Made by a program: the position numbers and the translations under genes
Part shown: in pieces, positions 1,854 to 17,797 of the stretch
Position numbering within the stretch: the first letter of the stretch is position 1
Layout: each line of letters starts with the position of its first letter
From: a virus
IMG/VR virus record: IMGVR_UViG_3300010400_000057
Location: 1-21,004 of that record
DNA length: 21,004 nt
Direction: 5' to 3' (one strand)
The notes under the pieces: generated by a model
What the model saw: the letters and a program-made list of their open reading frames with translations, nothing else
Databases searched by the model: none
What the model was told of the DNA's origin: nothing

Positions 1854-2108
1854 TCAGCGAGGGAGAATCGGCGGTCTCCGAAACTTGCCGGTTATGGCGG
1901 TCCTGGGATCGCGCGACTCGCCAAAGCATACCCAATAGGGATCGGCGCCGAAATAGGCGCAGAACTTCAGGAAGTTCTCGGGCTTTATGCCAGTGGTGGC
2001 ACCCGACTCCCATTGGGCAATCGCCGCGGCGCTGACGCCGACGATCTTGCCCATGGCCTCCATGCTGAGGCTTTGGGACTTCCGTAACATCTTGATTCGA
2101 TCGGCCAT
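1854..2108 (-). CDS. Phage HTH repressor, short CI-type
   Basis: This should be the lysogeny repressor. From the ATG at 2108 it is 84 aa: MADRIKMLRKSQSLSMEAM, then an HTH_3 (XRE/CI-type) core with recognition-helix region GVSAAAIAQWESG at about residues 26-38, and the usual C-terminal helices ending FGADPYWVCFG. An upstream in-frame ATG at 2171 lies inside operator OR1 and is unlikely. The gene is divergent from cro. Unlike lambda CI or LexA-type repressors it stops shortly after the HTH domain, with no Ala-Gly cleavage site and no S24 peptidase domain, so RecA-stimulated self-cleavage is not expected. It may be naturally short or truncated; I saw no peptidase coding in the next 170 bases. 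Confidence 0.88.
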   Translation of the reverse strand: MADRIKMLRKSQSLSMEAMGKIVGVSAAAIAQWESGATTGIKPENFLKFCAYFGADPYWVCFGESRDPRTAITGKFRRPPILPR

Positions 2109-2120
2109 CGTTTCCACGGC

Positions 2121-2134
2121 CGAAGCATATGGGG
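2121..2134. promoter_or_regulatory. Possible weak operator OR3
   Basis: CGAAGCATATGGGG keeps the AAGCAT half-site and is centred 21 bp from OR2, continuing the two-turn spacing of OR1 and OR2. It overlaps a minus-strand TATGCT (2129-2124) that could be the -10 of the repressor's own promoter, with only a weak -35 around 2153-2147. That layout resembles PRM/OR3 of lambda. The site is degenerate and the call is tentative. Confidence 0.4.
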
Positions 2135-2141
2135 CGCCTTC

Positions 2142-2155
2142 CTTCGCATGATTGA
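2142..2155 (+). promoter_or_regulatory. Operator OR2 (degenerate)
   Basis: CTTCGCATGATTGA matches the operator consensus in GCATG-TT-A. Its centre (2148.5) is 22 bp from OR1, exactly the OL1-OL2 spacing, and lies 3.5 bp upstream of the -35 start, exactly as OL2 does at the left promoter. The geometry, more than the sequence, supports it. Confidence 0.65.
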
Positions 2156-2181
2156 CGGCGTCGTTAAGCATGCTTTATGCT
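2152..2181 (+). promoter_or_regulatory. Right early promoter (PR-like)
   Basis: TTGACG (2152-2157), an 18-base spacer and TATGCT (2176-2181) form a promoter pointing into cro. Operator OR1 fills the spacer and OR2 overlaps the -35. The predicted transcription start, about seven bases after the -10, falls on or next to the cro ATG at 2188, so the cro message may be leaderless. Confidence 0.78.
2164..2177 (+). promoter_or_regulatory. Operator OR1
   Basis: TTAAGCATGCTTTA, containing the perfect palindrome AAGCATGCTT (2166-2175) shared with OL2. It sits between the -35 and -10 of the right promoter. Centre-to--35 distance (18.5 bp) is the same as for OL1 at the left promoter. Confidence 0.85.
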
Positions 2182-2187
2182 CTTGGG

Positions 2188-2406
2188 ATGCGGAAAGCCG
2201 ACGTCCTGAAGCATTACAAGACCGCCACAGCAGTTGCTGAAGCGCTCGATATCAGCGTAGCGGCGGTCTCGCAGTGGGGCGATCTCGTGCCGCCATTCTC
2301 TGCAAAGCGCCTCGCGCTGCTCAACGCAGCGCTGCCGTTCAATCCGGCGCTGTACCGAAATTCTTCCCAGAAGTGGCGTCGCATCGCGACAGCCCTTTCA
2401 GCTTAG
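2188..2406 (+). CDS. cro: Cro-like repressor
   Basis: The 72-aa protein starts MRKADVLKHYKTATAVAEAL and carries a Cro-type HTH (DISVAAVSQWGDLVPPFSAKR), the pattern of P22/lambdoid Cro proteins, in which the recognition helix is followed by SQWG and a V-P. It would bind the AAGCATGCTT operators and shut down early and repressor transcription, favouring lytic growth. I chose the ATG at 2188 because a longer frame from a TTG at 2152 would begin inside the -35 box of the right promoter. No proper Shine-Dalgarno precedes 2188, which fits a leaderless message. It is divergent from the HTH repressor gene. Confidence 0.87.
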   Translation: MRKADVLKHYKTATAVAEALDISVAAVSQWGDLVPPFSAKRLALLNAALPFNPALYRNSSQKWRRIATALSA

Positions 2407-4718: not shown

Positions 4719-5789
4719 ATGACCCGCGCCTCGCTTGCGTTCGTTCTGCTGCTCGTCAGCTTCGCCGCCCCCGCGCAGATTCAGTTTGGAACTGCGTACT
4801 CCACCGACGGCAACACCTGTCTCACGCCTAAGAACCTGGACGGCGCCACGATCACCGGCAAGGTCTGTGTGGTCCTGACGGCCTGCAAGCCGCCGATCGA
4901 CTTCAACCTCACCTGCGGCACGTTCACAGATACTTCGCACGAGAACACCGCGCCGTGTGACTACAAAGGCGGCGAGGGGAACCTCGTCAGCTTCCCGACC
5001 GGCTCTTGCACGATGACCGCCGGAGCCCTCACCGCGAAGTTCACCGTCACCGGGGCCACTCCTGTCCCGCCGACTGTTCCGCCGCCGACCTCGACGAAGC
5101 CGGGCGAAGCGAAACTGACGTGGGCGCCCTCGGCAACTTGGTCTGATGGCAGCACGCTCACCACGGGCACCGGCTACGTGATCAATTACGGGCTCACGTC
5201 CGCGGCTGCGGATCACCGTCTGGAATTGCCCGGTGCGAATCTCACGGGCTACACGATCACCGGGCTCGAGCCGGGCGTGTGGTATTTCACCGTGCAGACG
5301 GAAGCCATGACCGCTGCAAGCCCGCCCGCGCCGGTCACGAGCCTCGCCTCTACACCCGTGGTGAGTATCACGGTGGGCTCAGGCACGACACCGCCTCCGA
5401 CCTGTAGTGCCGCACCGGCTGTGGAATCGCGTCAGGTGACTTGTACGCCGCCGCTCGTAGGGAACTGGACCCAATCCCACGGGTGGACCTCGATCGCCGC
5501 TCCTGCGTGCTGGCAAGCAGATGCATGGCTACCTACGCAACCTCCGGTCGGGCAATGCGCGCTGCCTTCGCCGCTTCTCACCGCCGGACCATTGAGCTAT
5601 TCGCTAGGAGGCACCGCGACTGCTCCGACGATGACGGCGATCGGTCTCATCGCTGCCGGGCTTCCGTGCGGACCTGACACGAAGACCGTCGCCAATGTGA
5701 AGTACTGCCGCATCGTGCGCGCGCAGACCGATTTCGTGAACTGGCCGACGGACCTCAAAGCCGTCGACATCTGGGCCAAATCCCAATGA
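4719..5789 (+). CDS. Secreted-type phage protein with fibronectin type III domain
   Basis: The 356-aa product opens with a Sec signal peptide (MTRASLAFVLLLVSFAAPAQ, probable cleavage after A-P-A). A cysteine-containing beta domain (~22-110) follows, then a Pro/Thr linker (PPTVPPPTSTKPG), an FnIII-like domain (~125-215: KLTWAPSATWSDG, YTITGLEPGVWYFTVQ), another Pro/Thr linker and a Cys/Trp-rich C-terminal region (WTQSHGWTSIAAPACWQAD). FnIII domains are common in virion tails and aid weak surface binding. A cleavable signal peptide is unusual for a virion protein and implies export to the periplasm. First gene of the tail module; its stop overlaps the next ATG. Exact role unknown. Confidence 0.75.
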   Translation: MTRASLAFVLLLVSFAAPAQIQFGTAYSTDGNTCLTPKNLDGATITGKVCVVLTACKPPIDFNLTCGTFTDTSHENTAPCDYKGGEGNLVSFPTGSCTMTAGALTAKFTVTGATPVPPTVPPPTSTKPGEAKLTWAPSATWSDGSTLTTGTGYVINYGLTSAAADHRLELPGANLTGYTITGLEPGVWYFTVQTEAMTAASPPAPVTSLASTPVVSITVGSGTTPPPTCSAAPAVESRQVTCTPPLVGNWTQSHGWTSIAAPACWQADAWLPTQPPVGQCALPSPLLTAGPLSYSLGGTATAPTMTAIGLIAAGLPCGPDTKTVANVKYCRIVRAQTDFVNWPTDLKAVDIWAKSQ

Positions 5790-7377: not shown

Positions 7378-7595
7378 TGATCACAGTGCAACTGCAACCC
7401 GACGGTCCGATCACCGAAATGGACGAGTCCCTGCTCGAGAAGCGCGAGGGCGTCATCGACAACGACGTGGAGTACACGACGTGGGTCGAGTATTGGATCC
7501 CCGGAACGACTGACCGCGCGGTGCATCGCTCGGTCCATGTTCACCTGAAGCAGGGACTGATTTTGAACCCTGTGCAAGGTCAAATCGGTGGGTAA
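7377..7595 (+). CDS. Hypothetical protein (72 aa)
   Basis: The ATG at 7377 shares a base with the upstream TGA. The product (MITVQLQPDGPITEMDESLL) has acidic helical and beta segments (YTTWVEYWIPGTTDRAVHRS) and a hydrophobic C-terminus (VHLKQGLILNPVQGQIGG). The HNH endonuclease gene starts eight bases before its stop, so its 3' end may have been reshaped by that insertion. Longer in-frame sequence upstream is a shadow of the preceding gene. No family recognised. Confidence 0.65.
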   Translation: MITVQLQPDGPITEMDESLLEKREGVIDNDVEYTTWVEYWIPGTTDRAVHRSVHVHLKQGLILNPVQGQIGG

Positions 7596-8025
7596 GCCAG
7601 CAGCGGAGCGATTTCTTTCGTACGTAGCCAAGGCGAACAGCGGCTGCTGGGAATGGACTGGCTACCGTTTGCCGAGAGGGTATGGCCTGTTCAGCATGAA
7701 CGGCTCGCACGTTCTAGCGCATCGGGCCGCTTATGAATTGTTCAAAGGCGAGATAGACGACGGAATGCTCGTGATGCATTCCTGTGACAACCCGAGCTGC
7801 GTGAATCCCGATCACCTCACCAGCGGCTCACAGAAGGACAACATGGCAGATGCCGCGCGCAAAGGGCGGACTGCACAGAAACAAAGGCACGGACGCTGCA
7901 AGCTGACTGCTTCGCAAGTTGAAGCGATTCGCGCAGCGGAAGGCTCTCAGTACGAAATCGCGCGCCGATTTAGCATCAGTCAGACGCATGTCTGGCAGTT
8001 GAAACATCGAGCGCGCTGGTCCTAA
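7588..8025 (+). CDS. HNH homing endonuclease (HNH_3 type)
   Basis: Begins at GTG 7588 inside the end of the previous gene and encodes 145 aa. The catalytic domain is diagnostic: CWEWTG and GYGLF near the N-terminus, AHRAAYELFKGEI, then H-x-CDNPSCVNPDHL (~68-81) followed by GSQKDNMADAARKGR. This is the free-standing HNH_3 family of phage homing endonucleases, which cut intron-less alleles and spread by repair. The C-terminal RCKLTASQVEAIRAAEG plus YEIARRFSISQTHVWQLK is an HTH that would supply target specificity. It stands between two tail genes, not inside an intron, so it is a free-standing mobile gene. Confidence 0.92.
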   Translation: MGKPAAERFLSYVAKANSGCWEWTGYRLPRGYGLFSMNGSHVLAHRAAYELFKGEIDDGMLVMHSCDNPSCVNPDHLTSGSQKDNMADAARKGRTAQKQRHGRCKLTASQVEAIRAAEGSQYEIARRFSISQTHVWQLKHRARWS

Positions 8026-8034
8026 TTCGGAGGA

Positions 8035-8466
8035 TTGGCAGCCATCGCAAATACTCAGGAAGTGGGCTACACCGCCAAACAGGCCGCGCTCGCCGCGATC
8101 GTCAACGCCGTCTCGCTCAAAGCGGCACTCTACCTCGTCAGCGCGACGACCAACGGCAGCAATGGGGCGTATACCGCAACCGGTGAAGTCACCGGGACGA
8201 ACTACACCGCAGGCGGAGTCGCGGTCACCAATGCGAACACGGCCGGCCTCACCTCATCGACCACGTTCTGGACGCCTTCCGCCTCGATCGTCTACACGAC
8301 CGTCACACTCTCGACCGCCTTTGATGCGGTGATGATCTACGACACCGGCCAGAGCAATCGCAATCTCGGTGTCTTCACCTTCGGCAGTCAGACGGTCACC
8401 GCCGGCACCTTCACCCTCACGATGCCGACGAACAACAGCTCGACCGCGCTCATCCGCGCGACCTGA
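8035..8466 (+). CDS. Putative tail protein (beta-rich, 143 aa)
   Basis: The frame opens after the HNH gene and encodes a Thr/Ala/Asn-rich beta protein (residues AIANTQEVGYTAKQAALAAI, then NAVSLKAALYLVSATTNGSN) resembling small virion proteins built from repeated beta hairpins. The start is uncertain. TTG 8035 follows GGAGGA with no spacer, which is too close; ATC 8044 has a good nine-base spacing and would give IANTQEVGYTAK. No ATG or GTG is available nearby. The gene end is followed by a strong AGGAGG site for the next gene. Confidence 0.7.
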   Translation: MAAIANTQEVGYTAKQAALAAIVNAVSLKAALYLVSATTNGSNGAYTATGEVTGTNYTAGGVAVTNANTAGLTSSTTFWTPSASIVYTTVTLSTAFDAVMIYDTGQSNRNLGVFTFGSQTVTAGTFTLTMPTNNSSTALIRAT

Positions 8467-8476
8467 AGGAGGCGAC

Positions 8477-8680
8477 ATGAGCCTTGCCAGTGATTACGCC
8501 GCCGCGGAGGCGGCCACGAATGCGACGGTTCCGACTCCATGGACTGGCCCCGGAGGGCTTCTCACCGCCACGGTGCTCGAGGATGGCAGTTGTCTCCTCG
8601 TCGTGAGCGGGCGGCGCTATCCGGTTCCCGGAGTGGTGCTTCTGTCCTTCGCGGCGTGGGTCAATTCGACTTTCGGCTAG
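8477..8680 (+). CDS. Hypothetical tail-module protein (67 aa)
   Basis: The ATG at 8477 has an excellent AGGAGG six bases upstream, so the longer in-frame ORF is rejected. The product (MSLASDYAAAEAATNATVPT) is a short helix followed by a beta-hairpin-rich region (GGLLTATVLEDGSCLLVVSG, RRYPVPGVVLLSF), similar in style to the other small tail-module proteins. It ends four bases before the GIY-YIG gene. Unknown function. Confidence 0.72.
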   Translation: MSLASDYAAAEAATNATVPTPWTGPGGLLTATVLEDGSCLLVVSGRRYPVPGVVLLSFAAWVNSTFG

Positions 8681-8683
8681 CTA

Positions 8684-9250
8684 GTGACATCCACGGTCTA
8701 CTCGTTGAGTGCAGCCGATGGCGAAGTTCGCTACATCGGAGTCACGCGTGCGTCTCTGAATGTACGCCTGACCAAGCATTGCTCAGATGCCAAGCAGCGA
8801 TGTTCGTTACCAGTTCATTGCTGGATTGTAGCTTTACCGCAGCGACCGACGATCAAGGCGCTATGCATCGTCGCGGATCGTCATGCGTGGGAGTACGAGC
8901 GACGATTCATAGCCGGTTTCAGGAAGTTTGGCGCCGCACTTTTGAATCAAACGGCGGGGGGGCGAGGTTTCAAAGGCCTGCTCAAACGCGGCGCGGTATG
9001 GAACAAGGGGAAACCATTCCTGCAGATGATCGGCAATCAGTATGCCGCTGGGCGAAAGTCCCCAGCGCATGCCATCGAAGCACGGGCTATTGCGAACAGA
9101 GAGTCATGGGCTGATCCGGAGCGCAGAGCCAAACGACAAGCTGCGATCGCTGCTGTAAATGCCAGCCCTGAAACGAAGAGGCGCAGATCAGATGCGATAA
9201 AAGAGTTTTGGCGTAAACGTAAGGAGAAGGCAAATTCTGCTCCTTACTAG
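8684..9250 (+). CDS. GIY-YIG homing endonuclease
   Basis: GTG 8684, three bases after the previous stop, starts a 188-aa protein without its own ribosome site, so translation probably depends on reinitiation. The GIY-YIG nuclease core is visible: VYSLSAADGEVRYIGVT (~5-21; tyrosine pair and Y-I-G), catalytic arginine in LNVRLTKHC, glutamate in AWEYERRFIAGF and the closing NQTAGGRG. The C-terminal half (VWNKGKPF, then ADPERRAKRQAAIAAVNASP and ETKRRRSDAIKEFWRKR) resembles the NUMOD3-type DNA-binding repeats of phage homing enzymes. It is a second endonuclease, of a different family, 0.66 kb from the HNH gene. Confidence 0.88.
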   Translation: MTSTVYSLSAADGEVRYIGVTRASLNVRLTKHCSDAKQRCSLPVHCWIVALPQRPTIKALCIVADRHAWEYERRFIAGFRKFGAALLNQTAGGRGFKGLLKRGAVWNKGKPFLQMIGNQYAAGRKSPAHAIEARAIANRESWADPERRAKRQAAIAAVNASPETKRRRSDAIKEFWRKRKEKANSAPY

Positions 9251-10574
9251 TACGAGTGACGTCATCCGGATCATTACCGGAAGTGCGGCTGCGGTCGATT
9301 GCCACGCGTCATGGATGGATAACGCCTCCGGCACGATCACCCCGGGACGCACCAACACCGCATCGATCAGCACGGCCACGACGACGACGGTCGTCGCATC
9401 CCCCGGCGCCAGCACACAGCGCAACGTCAAGAACCTGACCGTCCACAACACTCACGCGACGGTTTCGACAACGGTCACCATCGAGCATTTCGATGGGACG
9501 AACGCCGAAACCTTGTGGGACGGAACACTCCTCGCCGGCGAATCGGTGATTCAGGATGAGATCGGCGTCTGGACGGCCTACACCTCCGGCGGCATCCCCA
9601 AGACGACGACGTTCGTCGGTCCCGCGGATGTGCAGATCTTCACCGCCACAGGCGCCAACACCTGGACCAAGCCCACCTCGTTCACCCCGAAAGTGGTGAT
9701 CGTGAAATTGTGGGCGGCCGGAGGCGGAGGGGGCGCCGGAGCTTCGCTCGCGACGGCGGTGATCGCCAAAGGTGGAGGGGGTGGAGGAGGCGGTGGATTC
9801 GCGCGCGAGAGTTACAACGCCGCAGACCTGGGCGCCACGGTCACCGTCACGATCGGTGCGGGCGGGGCTGCGGGGACTCCCGGCGCGGCCGGTGCCGCCG
9901 GTGGAAATGGCGGCGTCGGCGGCAATAGCACCTTCGGGACCTCGCTCACCGTCTTTGGCGGGGGTGGCGGGGCGGGTGGCGCTATCAGCGGTGTGGCGAC
10001 CGGCGGCGGTGGCGGTGGGGGCTCGGGAGGTGCTGGTGGAGTCGGCAGCACCACGGGCGGCACCGGAGGATTGCCGACCGCGGCCACCAACGGATCAGGG
10101 GGGCAGGGCGTCACGGGAGCGGCCGCCACGGGGACCTCAGCCAATGCGGAATTCGGTGGCGCGGGTGGCGCGGGCATCAACGCGACCCCGACGGGCGGTG
10201 CGGTAGGAGGCTCGAGCCTTTTCGCAGGCGGCGGAGGAGGCGCGGGCGGAAGTCACAACGCGACTCCGGCCATTGTCGCAGGAGGGGCCGGGGGCTCCTC
10301 CAATTCCTACACCGCAGGGGGTGGAGGATCGGTCGGTACCGATGGCGCCTCGCCGACCGCAGGAACCGCAGGAGCCGCTGGCGCCAGTGACAAGGGCGGT
10401 GCGGGCGGTGGTGGTGGTGGAACGACGGTGACGGCTTCAACCAACGGCGCAGCGGGCGGGGCCGGCGGACGCGGCGGTGGCGGTGGCGGCGGAGGAGGCG
10501 TGGGCCAGAACCCCGGCCTGGGAGGGGCGGGTGGCCTCGGCGGCAATGGCTACTGCGTCGTCTTCACCTGGTAG
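9234..10574 (+). CDS. Polyglycine-rich tail adhesin
   Basis: An N-terminal beta domain (TSDVIRIITG, SWMDNASGTITPGRTNTA, VKNLTVHNTHATVSTTV) is followed by FTATGANTWTKPTSFTPKVV, the hallmark strand before phage glycine-rich domains, and then about 270 residues of Gly runs ending GGNGYCVVFTW. Such domains pack as polyglycine-II helices and form receptor-binding tips, as in T-even gp38-type adhesins. The first ATG is at 9315, but the frame codes conserved-looking sequence back to 9234 and AAGGAG (9221-9226) is correctly spaced for ATT 9234 (or CTG 9237). I therefore place the start there, overlapping the end of the GIY-YIG gene. Likely host-recognition protein. Confidence 0.8.
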   Translation: MLLLTSTSDVIRIITGSAAAVDCHASWMDNASGTITPGRTNTASISTATTTTVVASPGASTQRNVKNLTVHNTHATVSTTVTIEHFDGTNAETLWDGTLLAGESVIQDEIGVWTAYTSGGIPKTTTFVGPADVQIFTATGANTWTKPTSFTPKVVIVKLWAAGGGGGAGASLATAVIAKGGGGGGGGGFARESYNAADLGATVTVTIGAGGAAGTPGAAGAAGGNGGVGGNSTFGTSLTVFGGGGGAGGAISGVATGGGGGGGSGGAGGVGSTTGGTGGLPTAATNGSGGQGVTGAAATGTSANAEFGGAGGAGINATPTGGAVGGSSLFAGGGGGAGGSHNATPAIVAGGAGGSSNSYTAGGGGSVGTDGASPTAGTAGAAGASDKGGAGGGGGGTTVTASTNGAAGGAGGRGGGGGGGGGVGQNPGLGGAGGLGGNGYCVVFTW

Positions 10575-15970: not shown

Positions 15971-16092
15971 AAGCGCACTGGGCAGCGTATTTCACATGTA
16001 TGGGCGCATTCGCTGGCCTGTGCTGGCTCGTGTTTAGTGAGCGTGGAAATGCCATCATCACGTGGATGAAACAGCGTGGCAGACGAGACTGA
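15967..16092 (+). CDS. 41-aa single-pass membrane protein
   Basis: TTG 15967 overlaps the previous stop (TTGA) and has GGAG six bases upstream. It encodes 41 residues with one hydrophobic segment (WAAYFTCMGAFAGLCWLVF, ~5-23) and a basic C-terminus (MKQRGRRD), predicted N-out/C-in by the positive-inside rule. It overlaps the Bbp19 start by 17 bases. Small single-span proteins in phages include holin-like, spanin-like and exclusion proteins; which, if any, applies here is unknown. An internal ATG at 16000 would give a shorter form with only part of the segment. Confidence 0.62.
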   Translation: MKAHWAAYFTCMGAFAGLCWLVFSERGNAIITWMKQRGRRD

Positions 16093-16387
16093 GCGAGTTT
16101 CCTCCAACGACCCGCGCAAGCTCAAAGAGCAGGGCGCGCGCGTTAAGGATCGCGAGAAGCAGGACGCCGAGGATTTGAAAGCGGTGCTCGCTACGCCCGA
16201 GGGACGCAGGCTGGTGCGAGGTCTGCTCGCCGAGTGTGGTGAGCACCGCACGAGCTTCAGCACGAACGCGATTCAGATGAGCTTCAACGAGGGCGCGCGC
16301 AACGTGGGCCTGAAGCTCAAAGCGCGCATCATTCGGGCTTCGCCGGAGTGGCTCGCTGAGCTTCTGCAATCCGAGCCTTCTCAGTAG
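16076..16387 (+). CDS. Bbp19-family phage protein
   Basis: From GTG 16076 the 103-aa protein has a charged N-terminal helix (SNDPRKLKEQGARVKDREKQ) and then the Bbp19 signature: DLKAVLATPEGRRLVRGLLA, ECGEHRTSF, NAIQMSFNEGARNVGLKLKA. This family is named after Bordetella phage BPP-1 and lies between portal and scaffold genes in related podoviruses. Its role is not established; the position suggests head assembly. Its last 59 bases overlap the 3' end of an oppositely oriented gene, so the two are convergent and antisense to each other. Confidence 0.88.
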   Translation: MADETERVSSNDPRKLKEQGARVKDREKQDAEDLKAVLATPEGRRLVRGLLAECGEHRTSFSTNAIQMSFNEGARNVGLKLKARIIRASPEWLAELLQSEPSQ

Positions 16388-16676
16388 CCAAGGCCGTTTC
16401 CCACCCTTCCGACAATTCAGGATATTCGATATCGCCTGCTCTGCCTCCATGCGCTTCGTGCTGACTATGCAAGAAAGCTAGAGTTTTCTGTTTGTCGACC
16501 GCGCATGAAGTGGCGAGAAAATAATGGGGGAGGCCTTCTCGGAAGACTAGGCGAAGTGTCATCTCACCAATGACGACAATTTGGCGCGGCATTGGTTTAT
16601 GGTGATGGTCGAACCATTCATGCACTCGCCAGTATCCCTTCCAATCTTGCTCGTTAGGAATGCGTGGCTCGATCAT
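16329..16676 (-). CDS. Hypothetical protein, third gene of antisense cassette
   Basis: The 115-aa product (MIEPRIPNEQDWKGYWRVHE, WFDHHHKPMPRQIVVIGEMT) starts by ATGA overlap with the gene before it. It has a His cluster, aromatic residues and a Glu/Ala/Lys-rich C-terminal helix. No family recognised. Its base composition is visibly less G+C-rich than the head genes around it, as expected for a recently acquired accessory gene (moron). The 3' end overlaps bbp19 on the other strand by 59 bases. A host-interaction or anti-defence role is possible from context only. Confidence 0.7.
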   Translation of the reverse strand: MIEPRIPNEQDWKGYWRVHEWFDHHHKPMPRQIVVIGEMTLRLVFREGLPHYFLATSCAVDKQKTLAFLHSQHEAHGGRAGDIEYPELSEGWETALATEKARIAEAQRATPAKPE

Positions 16677-16861
16677 TCTGGTTCTCTCTGAGATTCAGCA
16701 ATCCTGTCCGGATTGGATACAGAGCACATTGGACATGGCGTAGGTTCACGTGGCGCAGTCCAGCTGATCTGGCAAACGGTGCACCGGCCACGCATTGATT
16801 TTTCTCCGGGCTTCACCGGCGCATAGGTAAGCGGGCCATTGATTGGGTCGAAGAATCCCAT
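16673..16861 (-). CDS. Small zinc-ribbon protein, second gene of antisense cassette
   Basis: I start at the ATG at 16861, which shares a base with the TGA of the HTH gene (TGATG), giving 62 aa (MGFFDPINGPLTYAPVKPGE). A longer in-frame start at 16972 would run through the HTH gene and is rejected. Two cysteine pairs, CTVC and CPMC, 14 residues apart between the pairs, form a four-Cys zinc ribbon in the middle of the protein. Zinc ribbons bind nucleic acid or protein; no specific family recognised. Confidence 0.7.
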   Translation of the reverse strand: MGFFDPINGPLTYAPVKPGEKSMRGRCTVCQISWTAPREPTPCPMCSVSNPDRIAESQREPE

Positions 16862-17052
16862 CACACCACTCGCCGGTCCCGATTGAGCTTCCAATCTTCC
16901 AGTCTCTCGGCGACGTAGCGCCGGCGTTTGCCTGAGAGCACGCAGGGTATCTGGGCGCCGGACTGGACCCACTTTCGGAACGTCTTGAGACTCACCCCGA
17001 GATATTCAGCCGCTTCGCGCGGGCGCATTAGTTCCGCTTTTTGGGCTCTCAT
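16861..17052 (-). CDS. Excisionase/AlpA-like HTH protein, first gene of antisense cassette
   Basis: The 63-aa protein has a classic HTH_17 winged-helix motif: MRPREAAEYLGVSLKTFRKW followed by VQSGAQIPCVLSGKRRRYV and an LEDWKLNRD end, as in excisionase- and AlpA-like regulators. It probably binds DNA and regulates its own three-gene cassette; the 22-bp palindrome at 17119-17140 is a candidate site. GGGAAC precedes ATG 17052; an internal ATG at 17028 is an alternative. Regulators of this size often accompany phage accessory genes. With no integrase in view, a true excisionase role is less likely. Confidence 0.82.
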   Translation of the reverse strand: MRAQKAELMRPREAAEYLGVSLKTFRKWVQSGAQIPCVLSGKRRRYVAERLEDWKLNRDRRVV

Positions 17053-17118
17053 GTTCCCAGAATTATCCCTCTTACTGCCCCGCTATTCCAGCGTGGTTTC
17101 AGCCTGCATATAAGTAAT

Positions 17119-17140
17119 TCCGCAATTCACAAATTGCGGA
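17119..17140. promoter_or_regulatory. 22-bp perfect palindrome, candidate operator or RNA hairpin
   Basis: TCCGCAATT-CACA-AATTGCGGA: two perfect 9-bp arms and a 4-base centre, between the divergent HTH gene (start 17052) and the scaffold gene (start 17147). It may be the operator of the HTH protein. In the scaffold mRNA it would form a hairpin hiding the GCGGAG ribosome site before GTG 17147. No T-run follows on either strand, so it is not an intrinsic terminator. Confidence 0.65.
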
Positions 17141-17146
17141 GTCTCA

Positions 17147-17797
17147 GTGCCAGGCGAAAACACCATGACCCCGGCCAGCGCAGCAGCGCCGGCTGTCACA
17201 CCCGCAGCTCCGGCTGCACCACCGACAGCCACGCCACCTGCGGCAGCAACTCCTCCTCCGATTCTCGGCGCAGACCCGAATGCACCGCCCGCCACGCCGG
17301 CGACCCCGGCCGCGAAAGTCGTTCCCGAGAAGTACGAGCTGAAGGCGCCCGAAGGCCAGACGCTCGATCAACTGGGCCTCGATGCGTTCACCCCCGTGTT
17401 CAAGGAACTCGGGCTCACGCAGGAGCAGGCGCAGAAGCTCGTCGACACGCAGTTCAAGGTGACGGACGCCGCGCTGAAGGCGGCTGAGAAGACGATCGGA
17501 GATCAGGTCGCTGCGGAGACCGCGACGTGGGCGAAGGCATGCCGTGAAGACAAGGATTTCGGCGGCGCCAATTTCGAGGCCAACGCGAAGATCGCCAACA
17601 AGGCGCTCGCCGCATTCGGCACTCCGGAGTTGCGCGAAGCGCTGATCTCTTCGGGCTATGCGAATCACCCAGCGTTCGTGCGCCTCTTCTGGACGATTGG
17701 CCAGAAACTCGCCGAATCCACCGCGCCATCGGGCACCACGCCCAACGCGCAGAAAACCACTCCGGAACGCGTGCTCTACCCGAGCATGAATTCCTAA
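17147..17797 (+). CDS. Capsid scaffolding protein
   Basis: The 216-aa protein has an Ala/Pro-rich N-terminus (SAAAPAVTPAAPAAPPTATP), then helical, charged segments (YELKAPEGQTLDQLGLDAFT, ELGLTQEQAQKLVDTQFKV, ETATWAKACREDKDFGG) and ends TPERVLYPSMNS. This is the layout of scaffold proteins encoded just before the major capsid gene in BPP-1-like podoviruses. It would guide prohead assembly and be lost on maturation. GTG 17147 (GCGGAG upstream) and ATG 17165 are both possible starts. No protease motif is evident. Confidence 0.82.
   Translation: MPGENTMTPASAAAPAVTPAAPAAPPTATPPAAATPPPILGADPNAPPATPATPAAKVVPEKYELKAPEGQTLDQLGLDAFTPVFKELGLTQEQAQKLVDTQFKVTDAALKAAEKTIGDQVAAETATWAKACREDKDFGGANFEANAKIANKALAAFGTPELREALISSGYANHPAFVRLFWTIGQKLAESTAPSGTTPNAQKTTPERVLYPSMNS

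Follow-up and report, generated by a model that had tools for sequence, protein, structure and literature searches.

Protein-coding units nested antisense within an operon, and expressed mutually exclusively with it, have been reviewed under the concept of the noncontiguous operon (PMC7154746). In staphylococcal phages 80alpha and PhiNM2, sense and antisense expression are mutually exclusive at ith/tha; ith runs antisense inside the S. aureus phage cI operon, was formerly annotated as an excisionase, and encodes a protein that inhibits a defence protein (PMC11087260). XisF4 of the Pf4 prophage is an excisionase that regulates a divergent promoter as well as promoting excision, and it adjoins the repressor (PMC7379572). 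In P2-like and P4-like prophages, antiviral genes cluster in hotspots flanked by conserved genes (PMC9122126), and HK97 gp15, cited in PMC9936078, is an example of a moron. For Bbp19, the literature searched returned nothing but unrelated papers.

Here we describe a locus with the gene layout of a noncontiguous operon, in which a gene is transcribed inside, and against, an operon of one function. It was analysed in a 21,004-base IMG/VR viral contig (IMGVR_UViG_3300010400_000057), referred to as the window, and the same layout is found in every relative that carries the gene. The late region of the window is of the BPP-1/epsilon15 kind, with genes for a DUF5681 protein, large terminase, portal, Bbp19, scaffold/protease and a GP7-type capsid. 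Elsewhere in the window, an HTH_3 repressor-type gene (1854-2171, minus strand) and a P22_Cro-type gene (2152-2406, plus strand) overlap at their starts and form a temperate-phage immunity region. HNH_3 and GIY-YIG endonuclease-like genes, possibly homing endonucleases, lie upstream of the terminase gene (7588-8025 and 8684-9250), and positions 9315-10574 encode a fibre- or adhesin-like protein of 419 aa whose C-terminal half is very glycine-rich and exceeds 70% G+C.

An antisense gene chain between bbp19 and the scaffold gene

The original prediction placed three antisense genes, encoding an HTH protein, a zinc-ribbon-like protein and an orphan, between bbp19 and the scaffold gene, and all three were confirmed as real minus-strand ORFs in those places (Table 1). 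The HTH stop codon and the start of ORF B are joined in TGATG, the stop of ORF B and the start of ORF A in ATGA, and ORF A overlaps the 3' end of bbp19 by 59 nt. No credible plus-strand gene was found between the end of bbp19 (16387) and the scaffold start (17147). A start/stop-coupled chain of at least 700 nt arose in none of 2,000 dinucleotide-preserving shuffles of the region, and three chained ORFs arose in 13 of 2,000. The own-frame codon score of ORF A was above 99% of shuffles; that of ORF B did not rise above them (p 0.16), and B is therefore the least certain of the three as a gene.

Table 1. Features of the antisense unit and its surroundings (positions in the window unless a relative is named)
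Feature	Position	Strand	Remarks
bbp19 homologue	16076-16387	+	Upstream neighbour of the antisense unit; PF25181 2.3e-13
ORF A	16329-16676	-	115 aa; orphan cargo, private to the window contig
ORF B	16673-16861	-	62 aa; CxxC...CPMC, two CxxC-type knuckles, zinc-ribbon-like; cargo, private to the window contig
HTH_17/excisionase-fold regulator gene	16861-17052	-	63 aa; conserved first gene of the antisense unit
HTH-scaffold divergent intergenic region	17053-17146	.	47% G+C; presumed operator/promoter region
Hairpin TCCGCAATT(CACA)AATTGCGGA	17119-17140	+	3' arm includes part of the scaffold Shine-Dalgarno (GGAG), 6 nt from the GTG start
Scaffold/protease gene	17147-17797	+	Downstream neighbour, divergent from the HTH gene; phrog_458 6e-51; GTG start
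Hairpins before the scaffold gene in relatives	L029 2426-2444; L191 8822-8842; also L195, L201, L202

The product of the first gene belongs to the Pfam family HTH_17 (PF12728; E 2.9e-10, 40.7 bits, cut-off 27) and also scores above the cut-off of the excisionase family TIGR01764 (E 3.3e-9, 37.0 bits, cut-off 28.8). An AlphaFold (AF2) model made from a 16-member alignment confidently predicts a winged HTH (pLDDT 83.9), and the closest solved folds in Foldseek are the RdfS excisionase, Nu1-type terminase domains, Pukovnik Xis and BldC. By itself, this predicted fold does not separate excisionase, regulator and packaging roles. A PADLOC match to mad1, the HTH component of the MADS defence system (4e-7), is due only to the common HTH, and the assignment was rejected (NCBIfam NF047737, 20.4 bits against a cut-off of 80). 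Nor does the gene have the location and full-length fold of a terminase small subunit: it encodes 63 aa of HTH only, is antisense, lies more than 3.7 kb downstream of the large terminase gene, and resembles such proteins in fold only.

The lower G+C content attributed to the whole cassette is a property of its last two genes. ORFs A (52.6%) and B (54.0%) fall below the neighbouring genes (60-65%), also have a low GC3, and thus show the base composition of moron or accessory genes, whereas the HTH gene (60.4%) is like its neighbours. As had been predicted, the two downstream proteins match nothing known. Neither gave a significant match in Pfam, PHROGs, NCBIfam or PADLOC; ORF A matched no profile in any library, and ORF B gave weak, sub-threshold rubredoxin-like matches only. 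Pattern and tblastn searches of viral contigs found no relatives of either, the single-sequence pattern search being one that detects close relatives only. No relative of ORF A was found in the genome collection, in plasmids, in phages or in the whole records of 12 kin, and ORF B had one chance-level match in phages. A single-sequence AF2 model of ORF A was unreliable (pLDDT 47.6).

Distribution of the HTH gene and turnover of the genes behind it

Relatives were gathered via their capsid and portal proteins, and Bbp19, scaffold and any HTH gene were then placed in each. Both Bbp19 and scaffold could be placed in 190 loci, some carriers of the HTH gene being present under more than one locus id. 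Among these loci, every bbp19-scaffold gap longer than 120 bp contained an antisense HTH_17 gene, with the single exception of L240. The gene occupies this position in 16 distinct contigs, all uncultured: the window and 15 others (L029, L030, L083, L173, L176, L179, L180, L182, L191, L193, L195, L198, L201, L202 and L206). A search of 8 carrier records gave exactly one HTH_17 match per record. In the first survey, non-carriers in which both genes could be placed had gaps of no more than 93 bp; in the wider survey, L240 excepted, the limit was 120 bp. BPP-1 and phiV10 gave no HTH_17 match, and in both of them bbp19 and the scaffold gene abut or overlap with no antisense gene. At its bbp19-scaffold joint, L240 has an antisense ORF (7510-7659, minus strand) for a membrane-protein-like product of 49 aa, served by a good ribosome-binding site. 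On the plus strand of L240, a hairpin that resembles a terminator and includes a T-run directly precedes the scaffold gene (about 7690-7715).

In a portal tree of 60 relatives, a branch with 100/100 support separates the 15 carriers included from 45 non-carriers; one change is sufficient to explain the trait, with no loss among the carriers. All 15 relatives of the portal clade with a complete bbp19-scaffold stretch have the HTH gene, and none of the 45 outside it does, which bears out the expectation that a reverse-oriented unit headed by a small HTH gene would be absent from most relatives. Portal identity among the carrier phages goes down to about 41%. The HTH gene is, by pairwise codon comparison, under purifying selection, with dN/dS well below 1 (dN 0.27, dS 4.2 for the window and L029; dN 0.49, dS 1.45 for L029 and L030). 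Trees of HTH proteins that include other phage HTH_17 proteins neither support nor reject a single origin (p-AU 0.49), so two separate insertions at one site are possible. A search of the genome contig collection for bacterial prophage relatives, by capsid, confirmed none.

The contents of the region behind the HTH gene differ between carriers. In most, the region is empty or overlapped by bbp19; L030 has an antisense tRNA-His (GTG) gene there (4951-5024, minus strand); and L191 has, at the corresponding site, three chained minus-strand orphan ORFs (8280-8591, 8045-8278 and 7797-8054; 103, 77 and 85 aa) that are unrelated to A and B. PADLOC defence-system models matched neither A, B nor the L191 cargo. 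Because the contents vary in this way, from nothing to a tRNA gene, three orphans or A and B, we regard the region as a cargo slot. A and B are missing from L029 and L030, an accessory pattern that the HTH gene does not share.

Presence and absence in relatives therefore split the proposed cassette, which can be rejected as a single recently gained unit. Recent gain probably applies to A and B, which are private to the window contig and G+C-poor. The HTH gene is an old, fixed core gene of the clade; since it is also kept without cargo in most carriers, it is neither recent nor merely a limiter of cassette expression, as had been suggested. Conservation as a head component, the alternative raised for the whole cassette, holds for the HTH gene within its clade and not for A or B. 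An anti-host or exclusion function of A and B as accessory genes is possible.

The divergent region and the border of the scaffold-capsid half

The HTH and scaffold genes diverge from an intergenic region that is 60-138 bp long across carriers and G+C-poor in most. Inverted repeats are enriched in this region: 15 were found where 5.7 are expected from the intergenic regions of the clade, a number reached in none of 300 shuffles. In about half of the carriers, and rarely in non-carriers, a strong hairpin lies immediately upstream of the scaffold gene, its end 1-9 nt from the start codon and its 3' arm often including Shine-Dalgarno bases. A stem score of at least 16, ending no more than 9 nt from the scaffold start, was seen in 7 of 15 carriers compared to 0 of 36 non-carriers, the start of the latter being a confirmed ATG at only 16 of the 36 positions. 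The arms vary in sequence yet stay complementary in L029, L030, L191, L195, L201 and L202. Arm changes that keep complementarity are no less consistent with an RNA structure than with a DNA operator; the repeats, being unlike between members, do not demonstrate a shared operator and may act as RNA. A sigma-70 promoter scan of both strands of the region gave nothing above chance. The hairpin was also considered as a minus-strand terminator and rejected: there was one weak match in the window, the number of matches was not above that in shuffles, and the L191 repeat has no following T.

The genes on the two sides of this region appear to have different histories. The capsid tree splits the carriers (p-AU 0.0025 for keeping them together), and the window's scaffold protein is matched more closely by HTH-less relatives (E 1e-33) than by carriers from other lineages (E 4e-5 at best). 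These two results suggest that the scaffold-capsid half was probably exchanged in the ancestor of the window, L029 and L030. The recombination border in the window lineage would then probably lie between the HTH gene and the scaffold gene, within 17053-17146, with the HTH gene having probably stayed with portal and Bbp19. The Bbp19 and HTH sequences are too short for their trees to confirm the exchange. If HTH control of the scaffold and capsid genes is real, it persisted across a swap of its target genes, because those genes came from HTH-less relatives.

Proposed role of the antisense unit and comparison with known systems

We give about an even chance to the reading that the locus is an antisense regulatory unit, specific to the clade and lying within the head operon, that is, a noncontiguous operon, with a cargo site at its 3' end. 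Its fixed first gene would encode a small DNA-binding protein of the MerR/excisionase fold and would be transcribed away from the scaffold-capsid half; the 3' end of the unit would be a turnover site that gains short accessory genes, such as B and A in the window. While the late promoter is silent, in lysogeny or early infection, we infer that the minus-strand unit would be transcribed from a promoter of its own in the divergent region. The HTH protein would bind the repeats of that region and limit its own synthesis, and the bound protein would hold down transcription or readthrough into the scaffold-capsid genes. Once the late operon is on, sense transcription through portal and bbp19 would run across the antisense unit and silence it. 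The temperate-type immunity genes of the window (HTH_3 repressor and P22_Cro) count in favour of this reading. A more ambitious version, which we advance only tentatively, is that throughout the clade the HTH protein, the antisense transcript and the ribosome-binding-site hairpin jointly ensure that scaffold-capsid synthesis and the lysogenic or early state exclude each other, the unit doubling as a landing site for accessory genes.

The same repressor and Cro-type genes would also suit an ordinary moron, a lysogenically expressed accessory locus in which the HTH protein controls only itself and its cargo while A and B target the host or superinfecting phages. The orphan, G+C-poor and variable cargo and the precedent of antiviral hotspots between conserved prophage genes (PMC9122126) point the same way, but an HTH gene that is never lost and is held under purifying selection without cargo in most carriers does not, nor does the lack of any defence-system match for A, B or the L191 cargo; we consider this explanation rather unlikely.

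A role in packaging or head assembly, as a free-standing Nu1-like terminase small-subunit domain or a packaging modulator, is very unlikely given the orientation of the gene, which would preclude co-expression with the late genes among which it lies. That location favours such a role, as do a match to phrog_57 (2.7e-4) and further Foldseek matches to terminase small-subunit DNA-binding domains (7lw0, TM 0.64; 1j9i) and to a phage-satellite packaging redirector (6hn7). However, the winged-HTH fold is common to many regulators, and a small DUF5681 protein already precedes the large terminase.

The best profile and fold matches of the HTH protein are excisionases and would make it a recombination directionality factor of the carrier phages, which is highly improbable because integrases are missing from most carrier records. 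Only one of 8 such records contained a tyrosine integrase, at a distance of about 20 kb, and none of the 8 a resolvase or serine recombinase; records may be incomplete, and three of those lacking an integrase are 41-46 kb long. The HTH gene, moreover, lies in the head operon and does not adjoin an integrase gene.

Typically, aca genes come after acr genes. Hardly probable at all is a toxin-antitoxin or anti-defence operon with the HTH protein as repressor of small toxic or anti-defence proteins A and B: small overlapping genes do accompany the HTH gene, but many relatives keep it without them, its first position reverses the usual acr-aca order, and A and B match no family, so that the anti-defence architecture originally proposed fits poorly.

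The invariant antisense HTH gene is a more interesting fact than the orphan cargo, and one that is visible only with relatives at hand. Antisense genes in phage operons are usually written off as transient morons; here such a gene appears ancestral and is invariant across deeply diverged phages. It has stayed constant in a virion-making operon while its neighbours on one side were probably replaced and those behind it keep changing. The locus thus offers a testable case of nested antisense genes as stable regulatory parts of late operons, and it marks the region behind the HTH gene as a specific place to look for new accessory phage genes.

The head operons of BPP-1, epsilon15 and phiV10 share with the window the order portal, bbp19, scaffold/protease and capsid; those of BPP-1 and phiV10 differ from it in their overlapping or abutting bbp19 and scaffold genes, which leave no antisense gene between them. 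The ith/tha locus likewise has a small excisionase-annotated gene antisense inside a multi-gene phage operon, but the operon around it serves lysogeny (cI), whereas the one in the window is a late head operon, the antisense protein of the window is a clear HTH, and its reciprocal expression is a prediction. XisF4 resembles the role proposed for the HTH protein, being an excisionase-type regulator at a divergent promoter; it differs in that it also excises and sits beside a repressor, while the HTH protein of the window has no known integrase partner. The HTH site and the P2-like and P4-like hotspots both place small, variable cargo between a pair of conserved phage genes, but the HTH site is headed by a fixed antisense regulator and its cargo is tiny and matches no defence family. 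Like morons, the antisense unit adds genes of differing base composition among virion genes; morons are gained and lost, whereas the HTH gene is invariant in its clade.
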